The notes beneath the pieces are model-generated. The model was not told where the DNA came from, did no database searches, and was given only the letters and a program-made list of their open reading frames with translations. DNA of 64,000 nt from Maribacter arcticus (lineage in GTDB: Bacteria > Bacteroidota > Bacteroidia > Flavobacteriales > Flavobacteriaceae). Within the stretch, counting starts at the first letter, position 1. Every line of letters starts with the position of its first letter. Both the position numbers and the translations under genes were made by a program. Positions 58,651-64,000 of the stretch are shown here, one piece after another. The stretch is from positions 62,001-126,000 of the forward strand of contig NZ_FUYL01000010.1 of assembly GCF_900167935.1 (NCBI RefSeq). Direction: 5' to 3'.

Positions 58651-58905
58651 TTATTTACTTTTCAGTTTTGTATCTATAATTGCCATGGCATCGTTTACCG
58701 TTTGCATTTGGTCCATATCATCGTTTTCTAATCGAATATCAAAAGCATCCTCTACATCTAGAACAATGTCTACTAGGTTAGCGGAATTGATATTTAAATC
58801 ATTCATGAAATGACTATTCTGCTCAACATCTGCAACAGTCACATCTTCAGGAAGGTATATTTTAATAATATCCTTTAATTTTTGATATTTAATTTCTTCT
58901 AGCAT
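58651..58905 (-). CDS. Acyl carrier protein of the type III PKS cluster
   Basis: 84 residues. The phosphopantetheine site is Ser41 in NINSANLVDI (the family usually reads DSL), so the serine sits in a non-canonical NSAN context. Surrounding helices (MNDLNINSANLVDIVLDVED) match ACPs. Carries acyl intermediates for the neighbouring ketosynthase, dehydratase and reductase. Last gene of the minus-strand cluster; 63 bases after the ketosynthase. Confidence 0.9.
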   Translation of the reverse strand: MLEEIKYQKLKDIIKIYLPEDVTVADVEQNSHFMNDLNINSANLVDIVLDVEDAFDIRLENDDMDQMQTVNDAMAIIDTKLKSK

Positions 58906-58968
58906 CTTTTTATATTTTTATACCAAAAGGTATGTTTTAATGTTTTTTTAATTGAGCTCCTAAAGAAT

Positions 58969-60243
58969 TCAATCGGAATAGGCTTTAAAAATAACACATG
59001 CGTTAACATCTCCAAAACCAAAACTTGCTTTAGCAATTATTCTGGGCGTATAACTTATTGTCTTTCTTGGAATACAATCTTCTGAAATTAATGATTGTAT
59101 TTGAGTATGTATATCATCACAATTTACATTCTTAAACACCACATTTTCTTGAAATTGTAAAATAGTCGCTACACTCTCTATACTACCAGCTGCTGCCAAG
59201 CAGTGACCTATAGACCCTTTAAAAGAATTAACAAATGGGAAATCTTTTCCTGACCGATTCAAAGCCATGCTCCAATTTTCAATTTCTAAAGCATCTTTGG
59301 CCGTAGCAGTTAAATGACCGTTTATCACATCGACTTCAGATGCTTTTATGCCCGAATTGAAAATAGCATTACGAATACAACGCTGTACCGCTATACTGTT
59401 TGGTGCTGTCATAGAACCTTCTCCTAATTGACCGCCACTATTAATTTCTCCGCCCAATACTTCAGCATATATATGTGCACCTCTTTTCTGTGCGCTTTCT
59501 AGGGATTCTAAAATTAGAGCTCCTGCCCCACTTCCAGGAACAAACCCGCTAGCAGATGCACTCATGGGTCTACTGGCTTGGGAGGGATTATCGTTATATG
59601 CTCTAGGTAAAATACGCATAGCATCAAATCCGCCCCATACATACGGGCCACTATCACTACAGCTTCCCGTTAGCATAATCTCGGCTTTCCCTTGACTAAT
59701 ACGGTCGTATGCCATAATAATACCTTCTGTACCTGTCGTGCATGCAGCAGAATTGGTTGTTACTTGGTTACCGCAACCCAACAATCCGCCTATATAAGCA
59801 CTAATTCCGCTGGCCATCGTTTGTATGACAGAAGTACTGCCCAATCTTCGAACGTTACCTTCATCAATAAGGTGAATGGCTTCTCTAAATTTATCTACAC
59901 CCAAAATACCTGTCCCGAAAAGTATACCTCGGTCCCAGCTAGGCTCTTTTGTCTCGTTCTTTTTTAAACCAGCATCTTTCCATGCATCTACCCCCGCTAT
60001 TACACCGTATACGATTCCTGTAGCATTCAGCCCCCGTCTTTCAAGCGGTGTAAAATAATTATCAATAAGATTATCTTTCACCAAGGGTTCACCAGCTATC
60101 TGACAGCCGAACCCTAATTTTTCTAAAATAGGTTGATGCCGAATGCCACTTTTACCCTCTAAAAGAGATTGGGTGAAATCGGTAAGCCCCACTCCATTTG
60201 GCGCACATACTCCCAACCCTGTAATCACTACTCGTCTACTCAT
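58969..60243 (-). CDS. Beta-ketoacyl-ACP synthase (FabF-like)
   Basis: 424 residues from the ATG at 60243 (MSRRVVITGLGVCAPNG); the longer frame to 60252 reads into the dehydratase stop. Catalytic triad: Cys168 in NSAACTTGTEG, His310 in NGHLTATAKD and His347 in KGSIGHCLAAAGS (with Lys342). FabF/KASII-like fold. It extends an acyl chain on ACP. The start overlaps the dehydratase stop by 8 bases (ATGAGTAG), so it is translationally coupled. Confidence 0.92.
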   Translation of the reverse strand: MSRRVVITGLGVCAPNGVGLTDFTQSLLEGKSGIRHQPILEKLGFGCQIAGEPLVKDNLIDNYFTPLERRGLNATGIVYGVIAGVDAWKDAGLKKNETKEPSWDRGILFGTGILGVDKFREAIHLIDEGNVRRLGSTSVIQTMASGISAYIGGLLGCGNQVTTNSAACTTGTEGIIMAYDRISQGKAEIMLTGSCSDSGPYVWGGFDAMRILPRAYNDNPSQASRPMSASASGFVPGSGAGALILESLESAQKRGAHIYAEVLGGEINSGGQLGEGSMTAPNSIAVQRCIRNAIFNSGIKASEVDVINGHLTATAKDALEIENWSMALNRSGKDFPFVNSFKGSIGHCLAAAGSIESVATILQFQENVVFKNVNCDDIHTQIQSLISEDCIPRKTISYTPRIIAKASFGFGDVNACVIFKAYSD

Positions 60244-60688
60244 TATGTACACCCATCATGCCTGCCAATATACCTTTACAGACCAGTTTATCTTCTTCAT
60301 TAAACATTTTAACATTGCACTTTAATTTATGAAACCTAAAGTAAATAAGTTCTGAGGTAACCCGAACACGTTCTCCGGGAAAAACTGGTAGTAAAAATTC
60401 CATTTGAGAACTACTCATTCCTATTTTTAGGTCTTCTATGTTATTTTCTTCCCCCAAAAGATAAAGCCCCAAACTGACAAGACCAATTTGCGCACAGCAC
60501 TCGGTTAATATTACTCCTGGCGTTACTGGATTATTCTTAAAATGACCATCATAAAATGTAGCATCAGGTTTAAACGTATACGTTCCTTCTGCACTTTTCT
60601 CATCTACCTTTAAAATCTCATCAACAAACAGAAAAGGCTCCGAGTAGGGTAATCTATTCACTATCCACTGAAATGGTTTTCTTATCAT
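60236..60688 (-). CDS. 3-hydroxyacyl-ACP dehydratase (FabZ-like)
   Basis: 150 residues. Hot-dog fold with the FabZ active site: His49 in FYDGHFKNNPVTPGV and Glu63 in LTECCAQIGL. Dehydrates 3-hydroxyacyl-ACP. 10 bases after the SDR gene and overlapping the ketosynthase gene. Confidence 0.92.
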   Translation of the reverse strand: MIRKPFQWIVNRLPYSEPFLFVDEILKVDEKSAEGTYTFKPDATFYDGHFKNNPVTPGVILTECCAQIGLVSLGLYLLGEENNIEDLKIGMSSSQMEFLLPVFPGERVRVTSELIYFRFHKLKCNVKMFNEEDKLVCKGILAGMMGVHNE

Positions 60689-60698
60689 CGATTATATC

Positions 60699-61481
60699 TT
60701 AAATTAAACTTTCCCCACCATCTACTTTGATTACGGTACCAGTAATCCACTTTGCTTCATCGGTGGTTAGCATATAAACCGCATTTGCCACATCATTAGG
60801 AGTTGTTAATCGATTATTAGGATTTCTTTTCAATGCATTTGCTTTAATCTGCTCATAACCCGGAATCATAGATAAAGATTTGGTCATCGTAATACCTGCT
60901 TGTATACAATTCGCTTTTATACCGATTGGTGCAAATTCCAGAGCAATACTTCGTGTCAATGCCTCTAAAGCCACTTTAGCTACAGAAACGGCGCTATAAT
61001 TTGGTAAAGCTTTGGTATTACCCTCACTTGTAAACGAAATTATTCTAGTATCTGAGGCAAATAACTTTGTAGCGACTAATGCCTTTGTCCAATCATATAA
61101 ACTCAATGCCATTGCATCGAATGTTATTCTGAAATCAGTATCGGTAAGGGTTGAATTACTTTCGGAATACATTGGCTTCAATGCTCCCTTTGCAACACTA
61201 TGTACCAAAACTTTAATTTGATGCCCTTTTGGTAATTGGTGTTCTATATCGGAGATGATAACTGGACGCTTTTCTGCATTTAAGGCATCGGCATTCAATG
61301 TTATCAGTTGATTACCAAATGCACGAATCTCGTCAAAGGCATTTTCAATAGTATCCATATCAGAACGTCTATCTCGATGAACGATTATGATGTGATAACC
61401 ATGACTTGCTAATTTCTTTGCTGTAGCCAAACCAAGTCCGCTACTACCGCCTAAAATCAATGCCCAAAAATTAGTTTTCAT
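60699..61481 (-). CDS. SDR family acyl-ACP reductase (FabI/FabL-like)
   Basis: 260 residues. Rossmann glycine motif GGSSGLG (11-17), NAG-type region VLVHSVAKGA and catalytic Tyr162/Lys169 with six residues between (YSAVSVAK), the spacing of enoyl-ACP reductases FabI/FabL rather than the YxxxK of FabG. It may reduce enoyl-ACP (or ketoacyl-ACP) intermediates. 21 bases after the type III PKS gene. Confidence 0.85.
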   Translation of the reverse strand: MKTNFWALILGGSSGLGLATAKKLASHGYHIIIVHRDRRSDMDTIENAFDEIRAFGNQLITLNADALNAEKRPVIISDIEHQLPKGHQIKVLVHSVAKGALKPMYSESNSTLTDTDFRITFDAMALSLYDWTKALVATKLFASDTRIISFTSEGNTKALPNYSAVSVAKVALEALTRSIALEFAPIGIKANCIQAGITMTKSLSMIPGYEQIKANALKRNPNNRLTTPNDVANAVYMLTTDEAKWITGTVIKVDGGESLI

Positions 61482-61502
61482 TCTTCTAATTACTTTTATA
61501 AA

Positions 61503-62558
61503 CTACCATTCGATTAGAACTCGCTGTGCCGAAAAACCAGGACCAAAACTTAAAATGAGTCCTTGTTCACCTGTTGGTATCTCTTTTTCTAAAAAACGTT
61601 CTAAAACGTAAAGAACAGTAGCACTGCTCATATTACCATACAGTCTTAAAACTTCGCGGGTATCGTCAATATTCTTTCCTAAAGCACCAAATAATGATTC
61701 TACGGTTTGTACTATTTTTTTTCCTCCAGGATGAAAAATTAGATGGTCGACTTTATGAATATCACTTCCATATTTTTCCAAGAATGGGTGAACAATGTCC
61801 GAAAAATGATTTGATATTGTTTCTGGCACCGCTGGATCTAGAATCATCTTTAATCCATGATTAGTCAAATCGAAACCCATCATTTGGGTAGCATCTTTAA
61901 AGTGGTACATTTCCTCACCAATAATTTTAGGGCCAACAGCATCTTCTTCAGAAGATAAAAGTACACAAGCCGCACCATCGCCAAAGATTGCAGCACTTAC
62001 CATATTGGCCATAGAATAATCATTGAATTGGAAGGTTGCGGTCGGACTCTCAACTGAGACCAAAGCAATTCGCTTACCTGGATTAGATTTAAGGAAATTA
62101 TGTGCGTAGATGAGACCTGACACCCCAGCAGCACAACCCATCTCAGTCACAGGCAGCCTAACAATATCTTGACGCATACCGAGTTCATTGATTAAATAAG
62201 CATCTAAGGAAGGTATCATAATACCCGTACAACTTACCGTTATGATATAATCGATAGAATCAGCTTGCCAGCTACTCTTTTGAAGAGCGTTTCGCAGCAC
62301 ATTTGCTCCCATACGTTTCGCCTCCCTAACATAAATTTTATTTTTATCTTCAAAAGTGGTGGCTACAAATACCTCTTCTGGGGGCATTATGGAATATCGC
62401 TTGTCTACGGCGGCACCTTCAAAAATCTTAATGACCTTACGTGTAAAGCGCTCTTCCTGACCGCTTAACCAAAATTCAACTAATGGCAGTATATCCTTTG
62501 TATATCTAAAATACTCAGGTAATTCTTTGGTAACACTAACAATTCTTGTTTGATTCAT
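61503..62558 (-). CDS. Type III polyketide synthase (chalcone/stilbene synthase superfamily)
   Basis: 351 residues. Catalytic triad Cys142 (EMGCAAGVSGL), His276 (LIFHPGGKKIV) and Asn309 (RLYGNMSSATVLYVLE), plus SFGPGFSAQ near the end. Such enzymes take an acyl starter and add malonyl units, then cyclise to alkylresorcinols, alkylpyrones or related phenols. Start codon ATG at 62558, 23 bases after the methyltransferase. The central enzyme of this cluster. Confidence 0.95.
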   Translation of the reverse strand: MNQTRIVSVTKELPEYFRYTKDILPLVEFWLSGQEERFTRKVIKIFEGAAVDKRYSIMPPEEVFVATTFEDKNKIYVREAKRMGANVLRNALQKSSWQADSIDYIITVSCTGIMIPSLDAYLINELGMRQDIVRLPVTEMGCAAGVSGLIYAHNFLKSNPGKRIALVSVESPTATFQFNDYSMANMVSAAIFGDGAACVLLSSEEDAVGPKIIGEEMYHFKDATQMMGFDLTNHGLKMILDPAVPETISNHFSDIVHPFLEKYGSDIHKVDHLIFHPGGKKIVQTVESLFGALGKNIDDTREVLRLYGNMSSATVLYVLERFLEKEIPTGEQGLILSFGPGFSAQRVLIEW

Positions 62559-62581
62559 AGTTGTTCTTAGTCTTCAATCTA

Positions 62582-63289
62582 CTACTTCTTTTTTAAAACC
62601 CATACATATCGAAAGGCCCATTTCCATTCAATTTGGTGAGATGCATTTTTTACTTGAGCTGCATACCCCATTAAATCTTTCTTTTTAAACGCTCTTCGTA
62701 TCGATAGCAGCCCATCTTTTTTGGCTATTTCTGTTTTAATAAAAAAGAAGCTAAACGCCTTGAATAAATAATAAGCTATAGGATTACGCTCTAAATCATT
62801 GATAACGACCCCTATAGAAGCGAGGGAATTAAACTGATTTACAAATTGAACCACGCCTTTATCTGTGAAATGATGAAGGGTCAACGTAGTCATTACCACA
62901 TCTATACTATATGCTGAGAAATCAGCAGTTAAAATATCGGCTTCTAAATAAGTAATCTCAGGATATTCTGTGGAATAATAGGTTGCTAATTCTAGCCCTT
63001 GTTTATTTAAGTCTACTCCTATTAACTTGAGGTGAATATTTCGCTTTCTAGCTTCCAAAGCCAGCTTTCTAAGCATGGTTCCTTCCGCACAACCCATATC
63101 TAAAATCGTATACGATTCCTTATTTTTTAATGCAAGAAGCTTAAAAACAGCACTTAAAGTAATACTATAACCACCTAGTAGCCTATTTACCTTATTTATA
63201 TCCTGTAGTATCGTATCCAGTTCTTTGGTAGTACCAGAATAGGTATCCATAATCTCAATTTCAGTACTTCGCCGTGTAAAATCTACCAT
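62582..63289 (-). CDS. SAM-dependent methyltransferase of the PKS cluster
   Basis: 235 residues. Class I methyltransferase: motif I ILDMGCAEGTMLRKLALEA, motif II ADILTADFSAYSIDVVMTTLTL and a Trp/Phe-rich C-terminus. Likely O- or C-methylates the phenolic product. TAATG junction with the upstream oxidoreductase stop. Confidence 0.9.
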   Translation of the reverse strand: MVDFTRRSTEIEIMDTYSGTTKELDTILQDINKVNRLLGGYSITLSAVFKLLALKNKESYTILDMGCAEGTMLRKLALEARKRNIHLKLIGVDLNKQGLELATYYSTEYPEITYLEADILTADFSAYSIDVVMTTLTLHHFTDKGVVQFVNQFNSLASIGVVINDLERNPIAYYLFKAFSFFFIKTEIAKKDGLLSIRRAFKKKDLMGYAAQVKNASHQIEWKWAFRYVWVLKKK

Positions 63290-64000
63290 TAGGTTATCAA
63301 TTCTCCGTGTGTCTTCGTTATAATATATTTTAACAAGGTTTTCGATTTTCCAACCGTACGAATCCCCATTGAAACCATTGATTTGTTCATTAAGATACGC
63401 TGTAATTTTCTACCGAACCATAAACGTTTGCTAAATGTATTGGACCATACTTTTTTATAATCATTCTCTAACTGATGTCGTTCATAGTTTGAATCCTCAA
63501 AAAATCGCAATACCAATTCAGATGCAAGTTTAGCACTATGTATTGCCATTGCCATTCCATTTCCACAAAGTGGATGTATTAATCCTGCTGTATCACCACA
63601 CATGAGCATATGGTCCACCACTGCATCTTTTTTATCAAAGGAAATCTGGGCAATGGTCATGGGTTGATTGAATAATGGTTTTGCGCTTGATAAAAATGAA
63701 TTCAGAAAAGGGTTTTTCGCCACAACTTCATTATTAAAAGCGGTGATGTCTTTATATTTTTTAAAGGTTTCATAATGTGCAAGGTAACAGAAGTTGACCG
63801 CCCCCGATTCCGTTTTAGAGAGTCCGCCGTATCCTCCATCAAAATTATGCAAACCAACTAGTTCATTAGGAAAATCAGGTGATTGATAATGAGCTTTAAC
63901 CGCGAGCCAAGAGTTCTTTTTGAGACTGAATTCCCTTTCCTTATTTTTATCTAATACCGAACGCTTGCCATAGGCACCTACTACAATTTTGGAAGTATAT
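63289..64000 (-). CDS. FAD-dependent oxidoreductase/hydroxylase of the PKS cluster (5' partial)
   Basis: Frame is open to the window end; 237 residues are visible. Reading upstream beyond the TTG at 63852 gives SKIVVGAYGKRSVLDKN and LAVKAHYQSPDFPN. This is the middle and end of a geranylgeranyl-reductase/halogenase-type flavoprotein: the LMCGDTAGLIHPLCGNGMA flavin motif is clear, with a helical C-terminus. It may hydroxylate the ring of the type III PKS product. It is the upstream member of the seven-gene operon. Confidence 0.88.
   Translation of the reverse strand, partial: YTSKIVVGAYGKRSVLDKNKEREFSLKKNSWLAVKAHYQSPDFPNELVGLHNFDGGYGGLSKTESGAVNFCYLAHYETFKKYKDITAFNNEVVAKNPFLNSFLSSAKPLFNQPMTIAQISFDKKDAVVDHMLMCGDTAGLIHPLCGNGMAMAIHSAKLASELVLRFFEDSNYERHQLENDYKKVWSNTFSKRLWFGRKLQRILMNKSMVSMGIRTVGKSKTLLKYIITKTHGELIT

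Follow-up and report, generated by a model that had tools for sequence, protein, structure and literature searches.

A conserved type III polyketide synthase cluster with its own fatty-acid cassette in Flavobacteriaceae: a predicted phenolic-lipid pathway

Introduction

Type III polyketide synthases (PKSs) are mostly described as free-standing enzymes with coenzyme A (CoA) starters. When fatty-acid-type genes lie next to such an enzyme, do they supply it with a dedicated acyl chain, or are the two merely neighbors? This question is raised by a 64,000-nucleotide stretch of the Maribacter arcticus genome (contig NZ_FUYL01000010.1, positions 62,001 to 126,000), called here the window. At 58651–64000 the window carries seven genes, all on the minus strand, with the transcription order FAD (flavin adenine dinucleotide) oxidoreductase, methyltransferase (MT), type III PKS, short-chain dehydrogenase/reductase (SDR), FabZ-like dehydratase (DH), FabF-like ketosynthase (KS) and acyl carrier protein (ACP). 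We consider it likely that SDR-DH-KS-ACP serves in Bacteroidota as a portable cassette for acyl supply, paired in different lineages with no fewer than three unrelated chain users. These would be the type III PKS with the FAD enzyme and MT (in three families, the window's among them), a dialkylresorcinol synthase of the DarB type, and a glycosyltransferase together with a GNAT acyltransferase. The PKS version would then be a phenolic-lipid pathway that is widespread and inherited and has a dissociated fatty acid synthase of its own.

In the open-access literature, at the level of titles and abstracts and with subscription papers mostly outside, we found no description of the seven-gene cluster. 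Here and below, papers are cited by their PMC numbers and for the parts of their texts that were available. Type III PKSs make up about 9% (PMC7440613) and 10.7% (PMC10734526) of Flavobacteriaceae clusters, and the available parts of both papers name no product for them. The parts of the cluster are of known kinds. The novelty lies in two things: a type III PKS has long stayed paired with a fatty-acid cassette of dissociated enzymes, and this cassette has been reused. Of the 397 sampled family-level genomes, 142 keep a type III PKS tied to its own fatty-acid cassette, and a similar cassette is found again next to other enzymes that make rings or lipids. Type III PKS clusters are a common orphan class, for which a specific, testable pathway is offered here.

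Results and Discussion

Gene content of the cluster

Coordinates are window positions; values above 64000, called window-equivalent, continue in the genome past the window edge. All features were read on the minus strand.

63289–64000, minus strand: 3′ part of the FAD-dependent oxidoreductase gene (geranylgeranyl reductase / FAD_binding_3 type; Pfam, NCBIfam).
62582–63289, minus strand: class I S-adenosylmethionine-dependent MT, 235 amino acids (PRK06202-like, below cut-off).
61503–62558, minus strand: type III PKS, 351 amino acids, Cys142/His276/Asn309 (Pfam, solved relatives).
60699–61481, minus strand: SDR of the enoyl-ACP-reductase (FabL) type, 260 amino acids, Tyr162-x6-Lys169 (NCBIfam, solved relative).
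60236–60688, minus strand: FabZ-like 3-hydroxyacyl-ACP dehydratase, 150 amino acids, His49/Glu63 (Pfam, NCBIfam).
58969–60243, minus strand: FabF-like KS, 424 amino acids, Cys/His/Lys/His intact (Pfam, NCBIfam).
58651–58905, minus strand: ACP, 84 amino acids, Ser41 the likely phosphopantetheine site (Pfam PP-binding).

A preliminary description, made from the letters of the window, had placed seven co-oriented genes here, with the FAD gene running beyond the edge. Pfam and NCBIfam assign the seven families on the minus strand, and the FAD gene is complete in the genome at 374 amino acids (L002:6790–7914, window-equivalent 63289–64413).

Conservation in the family

To follow the cluster, we used a sample of 397 family-level genomes; all genome sets in this work are draws and not complete collections, and score and identity served to call orthologs. 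The PKS search found matches in 177 of the 397 genomes at E ≤ 1e-10, which were narrowed to 142 orthologs (≥58% identity). Left out were 34 weak matches with E-values of about 1e-11 to 1e-16, which were regarded as KASIII-like without a scan, and G072, whose match, at 33% identity, is another type III PKS. The PKS ortholog is thus present in 142 of the 397 genomes, in G150 as two pieces, and the KS (E ≤ 1e-90, 52–100% identity) in 140. It turned out that both occur together in 140 genomes, the PKS alone in 2, the KS alone in none, and neither in 255. Both PKS-only genomes are contig breaks: one contig stops inside the KS gene (L187), and the other ends at the start of the DH gene (L186).

According to two match listings, the KS lies near the PKS on the same contig in 135 of the 140 genomes. 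Elsewhere the cluster is split or cut. G144 and G190, in which both places were read, carry FAD-MT-PKS-SDR apart from DH-KS-ACP and keep both (L059/L189, L066/L188); in G329 and G276, in which the KS place was read, DH-KS-ACP stands there (L190, L191); G066 shows a contig edge (L192). A DH ortholog (51–54% identity) was also seen away from the cluster at G118:C1:2916672-2917115 and G313:C17:577083-577517, and the one in G118 adjoins a dehydrogenase-E1-like gene that elsewhere sits upstream of the cluster.

We read 81 neighborhoods, namely the window and 80 loci hand-picked from the 141 other PKS-holding genomes so as to span the identity range. All seven families stand on one strand and in the same order in 72 of the 81. 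The FAD, MT and PKS genes are present in every locus, SDR in 74, and DH, KS and ACP in 79. Over the 80 other loci, identity to the window is 62–93% for the PKS, 58–87% for the KS, 49–85% for the SDR, 49–74% for the DH, 42–88% for the ACP, 44–72% for the FAD enzyme and 32–77% for the MT. The PKS range lies above those of the FAD enzyme and MT, which indicates that the ring former has varied less than the tailoring enzymes. Judged by their sequences, the seven genes are a conserved unit, more than a chance order. Some copies look broken: PKS and FAD genes are each in two pieces in L194 (G150), and the FAD gene is in two pieces in L196 (G118), by sequencing error or decay.

These counts bear on a simple rival, in which SDR, DH, KS and ACP would be a second, general fatty acid synthase that serves membrane lipids and just happens to neighbor the PKS. 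The enzymes are indeed of the ordinary fatty acid synthase type, and homologous cassettes lie away from this PKS in other Bacteroidota (5 of 395 genomes; the g254 loci described below). However, none of the 140 KS-holding genomes of the family lacks the PKS, both halves are kept where they are separated, and of 15 PKS-distant cassettes eight adjoin DarB, three adjoin GNAT and GT2 genes, and four neither. We therefore regard this rival as very improbable. The preliminary description had raised the case of KS, DH, SDR and ACP genes kept without the PKS in close relatives, and the same count of 0 in 140 answers it for the family. Its proposal that dedicated fatty-acid-type genes travel with the PKS as a functional unit holds there as well (140 of the 142 also have the KS, none has the KS alone, and split clusters keep both halves). 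In more distant Bacteroidota the cassette also occurs without this PKS beside it (5 of 395 genomes and all ten g254 loci read), which shows that it is not PKS-specific.

The cluster and its core outside the family

In a sample of 395 genomes of the phylum, a strong PKS match was found in 33 (30 of them from the window's family, the others being G472 and G524 of family f3 and G631 of family f10), and all 33 have the KS. The f10 locus (L185) carries all seven genes. The two f3 loci (L183, L184) carry six, without SDR, as do 10 of 10 further f3 loci (L230–L239); L183 and L184 are mutually nearest in each of the six genes, ACP giving a tie. In the order that holds f3, a KS match at E ≤ 1e-80 is present in 167 of 390 genomes, 119 of them in g252/g241 (58–65% identity where listed) and 48 in g254 (about 50–53% where listed). 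The loci outside the family that were read individually are L183–L185, L230–L239, ten of g254 and those of the phylum sample, so that the 167 KS-holding genomes were covered in part.

The PKS, MT and FAD genes also occur as a core in nine loci of other families (L163–L166, L173, L174, L176, L177, L202), and the stretches read there gave no SDR, DH, KS or ACP match at E ≤ 1e-5. A Paracoccus plasmid has a PKS-MT-FAD operon with 31% (MT) and 27% (FAD) identity to the window proteins. The seven-gene cluster looks as if such a core had been combined with an acyl cassette. In sixteen other loci a PKS was found but no MT or FAD match, and the scanned neighbor in four of them is an ICMT methyltransferase.

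Several side observations concern these relatives. In L172, L197, L199 and L201 a type III PKS stands beside an ICMT-family methyltransferase, as a separate Bacteroidota cluster of an srs/bps-like type. A UbiA-type prenyltransferase adjoins the PKS-MT-FAD core in L163 and L202 (L225 has only sub-cut-off matches), and a prenylated phenolic product of these cores is possible. Bernardetia and Hymenobacter plasmids also carry relatives of the FAD enzyme, with no annotated PKS alongside. On a Hymenobacter plasmid (L211), an FAD-enzyme homolog (34.8%) lies beside an isonitrile synthase and a TauD/TfdA dioxygenase, apparently in a different cluster. A PKS region of a Streptomyces plasmid bears no annotated features.

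The cassette beside other partners

In L220 and L221 of the phylum sample, SDR-DH-KS-ACP is divergent from a DarB gene (635 and 615 bits; cut-off 550), and the KS is 49–51% identical to that of the window. L220 has DarG and DarH over cut-offs and an ABC transporter, and L221 has homologs of these. The other arrangements are GT2-GNAT-SDR-DH-KS-ACP in L222 and GNAT-DH-KS-ACP-GT2 in L223 and L224, with weak GNAT matches in all three; this context may belong to a glycolipid or acyl-amino-type pathway. All ten g254 loci read are without the cluster PKS beside the cassette; six have homologs of the DarB set and four do not. A phosphopantetheinyl transferase (PPTase) gene follows ACP in L241, L242 and L221, and a similar-sized unscanned gene stands there in L243 and L248. 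The loci with the DarB set and the cassette are L220, L221, L240, L244–L247 and L249, at which the cassette might be the acyl source for dialkylresorcinols.

Taken together, 15 cassettes lie away from the PKS, 8 beside DarB homologs, 3 beside GNAT and GT2 genes, and 4 beside neither. Since most adjoin other acyl users, they fit a role in acyl supply, but the cassette is not PKS-specific. Its catalytic residues are intact in 25 of 25 KS, 26 of 26 DH, 13 of 13 SDR (Tyr-x6-Lys) and 25 of 25 ACP sequences, with the ten f3 PKS loci counted in for KS, DH and ACP. We also built a KS tree of 58 rows, in which the family was represented by every third row and the window. The 42 PKS-linked rows group together (Shimodaira–Hasegawa-like approximate likelihood ratio test, SH-aLRT, 99), apart from 12 DarB- or PPTase-linked rows (100). 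The three GNAT-linked rows fall outside both groups; the root is unsure, owing to a very long FabF branch.

Enzyme identities and the loss of SDR

Catalytic residues were aligned in 80–90 orthologs per enzyme, with score floors that drop the broken copies (PKS of L194; FAD enzyme of L194 and L196; KS of L187). The PKS matches the N- and C-terminal chalcone/stilbene synthase domains of Pfam over cut-off, and its Cys-His-Asn is invariant (88/88); the closest named PKS among the matches listed, which may omit records very close to the window's genome, is that of Maribacter orientalis (98% identical). The Cys-His-Lys-His of the KS is invariant in 90 of 90, with 269.6 bits for the fabF model against an equivalog cut-off of 493.75. 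The DH matches PF07977 over cut-off, lies below the FabZ equivalog cut-offs, and has His49 and Glu63 in all 90 sequences. The ACP scores 23.9 bits for PF00550 (cut-off 20.8), with Ser41 invariant (90/90). In the FAD enzyme, the glycines and Asp of the GxGxxG and GD motifs are conserved in 87 of 87. The NCBIfam scores of the cluster proteins are always below the curated cut-offs, so these proteins are diverged relatives of the model families. With the catalytic residues invariant, every enzyme of the cluster looks active.

Tyr-x3-Lys is the motif of FabG-type ketoreductases, and Tyr-x6-Lys that of FabI/FabL enoyl reductases. The window SDR has FabL as its best NCBIfam model (165.6 bits; cut-off 328) and the enoyl-ACP reductase 3oic as its best solved relative. 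Tyr-x6-Lys is present in 80 of 80 orthologs, and the residue at Tyr+4 is Ser, Gly or Ala and never Lys. These residues exclude a FabG-type ketoreductase, and the SDR is, on its motifs, of the FabL-like enoyl-reductase type. The cluster itself contains no ketoreductase gene.

The genome has other enzymes of these kinds. The PP-binding and FabA/Z models each find 2 matches genome-wide, and the ketoacyl-synthase model 5, of which 3 are above 50 bits. The cluster KS, ACP and DH are 32%, 30% and 28% identical to the other copies, and this low identity indicates that the cluster set is separate from the housekeeping set.

SDR is missing in nine aligned PKS loci, seven in the family and two in f3, and DH, KS and ACP are retained in all nine. 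The PKS tree requires 7 changes to explain this, and well-supported branches force at least 4 of them; shuffled SDR labels were equally clustered in 18 of 500 trials. Elsewhere in the nine SDR-minus genomes, no SDR match exceeds 36% identity, and three of the genomes have none at E ≤ 1e-15. With SDR-plus and SDR-minus clusters both occurring in nature, the role of chain saturation can be tested directly.

The predicted pathway

We think it fairly probable that the cluster encodes a two-module phenolic-lipid pathway, in which the cassette makes a dedicated acyl-ACP, the PKS forms a ring, and the FAD enzyme and MT tailor it. In module 1 (SDR-DH-KS-ACP), the FabF-like KS would elongate an acyl chain on the ACP of the cluster. 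Because the cluster has no ketoreductase, the keto group would be reduced by the host FabG; the FabZ-like DH would then dehydrate the chain, and the FabL-type SDR would reduce the double bond. In module 2 (FAD-MT-PKS), the PKS would take the acyl chain, add malonyl units and close the ring, most likely to an alkylresorcinol, which the FAD enzyme would oxidize (hydroxylate) and the MT methylate. The alkylresorcinol assignment follows the PKSs of planctomycete MT-FAD-PKS operons, which gave pentadecyl- and heptadecylresorcinols; the co-expressed MT and FAD genes added one methyl group, probably on carbon (PMC10896814). Transfer from an acyl-ACP to a type III PKS has precedents in ArsA to ArsB/ArsC (PMC6274091) and in CylI and germicidin synthase (PMC8086630). 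Sequence-level support consists of the gene content, the intact catalytic residues, the near-perfect co-occurrence, the retention of both modules after separation, and the homologous cassettes beside acyl users. The hand-off from ACP to PKS, the ring type, the order and site of tailoring and the biological role are what we infer from it.

Several points weigh against this pathway. It is predicted from sequence. Among solved structures, the best relative of the PKS is Mycobacterium Pks11, an α-pyrone synthase (about 30% alike). The family of the FAD enzyme also includes reductases and halogenases, so hydroxylation is a guess, and the role of the planctomycete FAD gene stayed open (PMC10896814). 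The repeated loss of SDR suggests that full reduction inside the cluster is not essential. In 5 of the 395 phylum-sample genomes a KS homolog (43–51%) lies away from the PKS, which shows that the cassette is not PKS-specific. Elsewhere these five genomes carry another type III PKS, accompanied by MT and FAD homologs in L225, by MT homologs and only weak FAD matches in L226–L228, and by an ICMT gene in L197; the cassette may serve that PKS in trans or have no link with it.

The first of these points about the PKS leads to a different product. If the PKS is an alkylpyrone synthase, as its best solved relative would suggest, the FAD enzyme and MT would tailor a pyrone instead of a resorcinol. However, the likeness to Pks11 is low, and the class I MT and FAD layout matches operons whose PKSs make alkylresorcinols (PMC10896814). 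We consider the pyrone unlikely.

The SDR-minus loci suggest another variant, in which the chain that the cassette passes on is only partly processed (2-enoyl- or 3-ketoacyl-ACP). The SDR would then do no more than adjust saturation, and the chain of the product would be unsaturated or oxygenated next to the ring. This variant agrees with the absence of SDR, with DH, KS and ACP kept, in the 9 aligned PKS-type loci and in 10 of 10 further f3 loci, and with the absence of a close SDR elsewhere in the nine SDR-minus genomes searched. A related cassette also lies beside DarB, whose class joins a β-ketoacyl and an α,β-unsaturated acyl thioester (PMC4578411). Against it, the enoyl-reductase-type SDR is kept in most family loci (74/81), and the host may own another enoyl reductase. 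We hold this variant to be unlikely, and the two-module pathway with a reduced chain remains the preferred reading.

Comparison with known systems

SrsB and BpsB are ICMT-family methyltransferases, and SrsB is a membrane enzyme. The preliminary description had likened the PKS, MT and FAD genes to the srs-type layout. This likeness has to be given up: the window MT matches class I models of Pfam and NCBIfam and has no ICMT match in the Pfam scan, which rules out srs-type membership. What the window shares with Streptomyces srsABC and Bacillus bps is a type III PKS with a methyltransferase, and srs also has a hydroxylase (PMC8086630); the difference is the MT class. The hidABC (hierridin) operon of cyanobacteria and the planctomycete operon likewise unite a type III PKS, an MT and an oxidoreductase, and their PKSs make alkylresorcinols (PMC10896814, PMC8086630). 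Their gene order differs, and the window adds SDR, DH, KS and ACP, none of which is described there in the available parts of the papers; the likeness seen here is one of layout. On this basis, the window layout is closer to the hid-type and alphaproteobacterial PKS-MT-FAD operons than to the srs type.

ArsA of Azotobacter is a type I multidomain protein. The window synthase, in contrast, consists of dissociated single enzymes and is accompanied by MT and FAD genes. In the Azotobacter ars operon, acyl-ACP passes from a dedicated fatty acid synthase to the type III PKS (PMC6274091), and the window cluster is predicted to work alike. In cyl (cylindrocyclophane-type) clusters, a free-standing ACP and chain-extending enzymes also feed a type III PKS, but there type I PKSs extend the chain, and a halogenase and an alkylating enzyme are present as well (PMC8086630). 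The DarB-type dialkylresorcinol/flexirubin genes share a homologous SDR-DH-KS-ACP beside DarB/DarG/DarH (L220, L221), and differ in that the KSIII-like DarB, instead of a type III PKS, forms the ring. Marine flavobacteria also have the Ubi-297/ebo prenyltransferase operon, which was rejected as a relative, since it consists of other genes in the available part of its description (PMC9235831). The type III PKS clusters of five Pedobacter isolates are reported to have seven shared genes (PMC10452622).

Gene junctions and flanking genes

The two coupling signs of the preliminary description can be read at the FAD-MT and DH-KS junctions. The first is a 1-base overlap (TAATG) and the second an 8-base overlap, ATGAGTAG. 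The KS start is most likely the ATG at 60243 rather than the GTG at 60252 given in the open reading frame list. The other gaps are 23 bases (MT-PKS), 21 (PKS-SDR), 10 (SDR-DH) and 63 (KS-ACP). An Rfam scan of the window gave 0 matches at gathering scores, and a tRNA scan of L002 gave 0.

Downstream, a TerC-family gene faces the cluster. The upstream neighbors on the same strand encode an OmpA lipoprotein, a lipocalin-like lipoprotein and a dehydrogenase-E1-like protein. The preliminary description had allowed for further genes past the window edge; these next genes are not cluster enzymes, and we rejected them as members because they have no match in the other-family loci L183–L185 or in several family loci. 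A terminator-like hairpin with a T-tract lies between the OmpA and FAD genes, just past the window edge (L002:7932–7971). Its distance to the FAD start is about 18 bases, which leaves scant room for a promoter after it. Among 60 relatives with OmpA upstream, a simple scan for exact arms found a like hairpin in 34. It is possible that transcription reads through the hairpin or starts from a promoter overlapping it.

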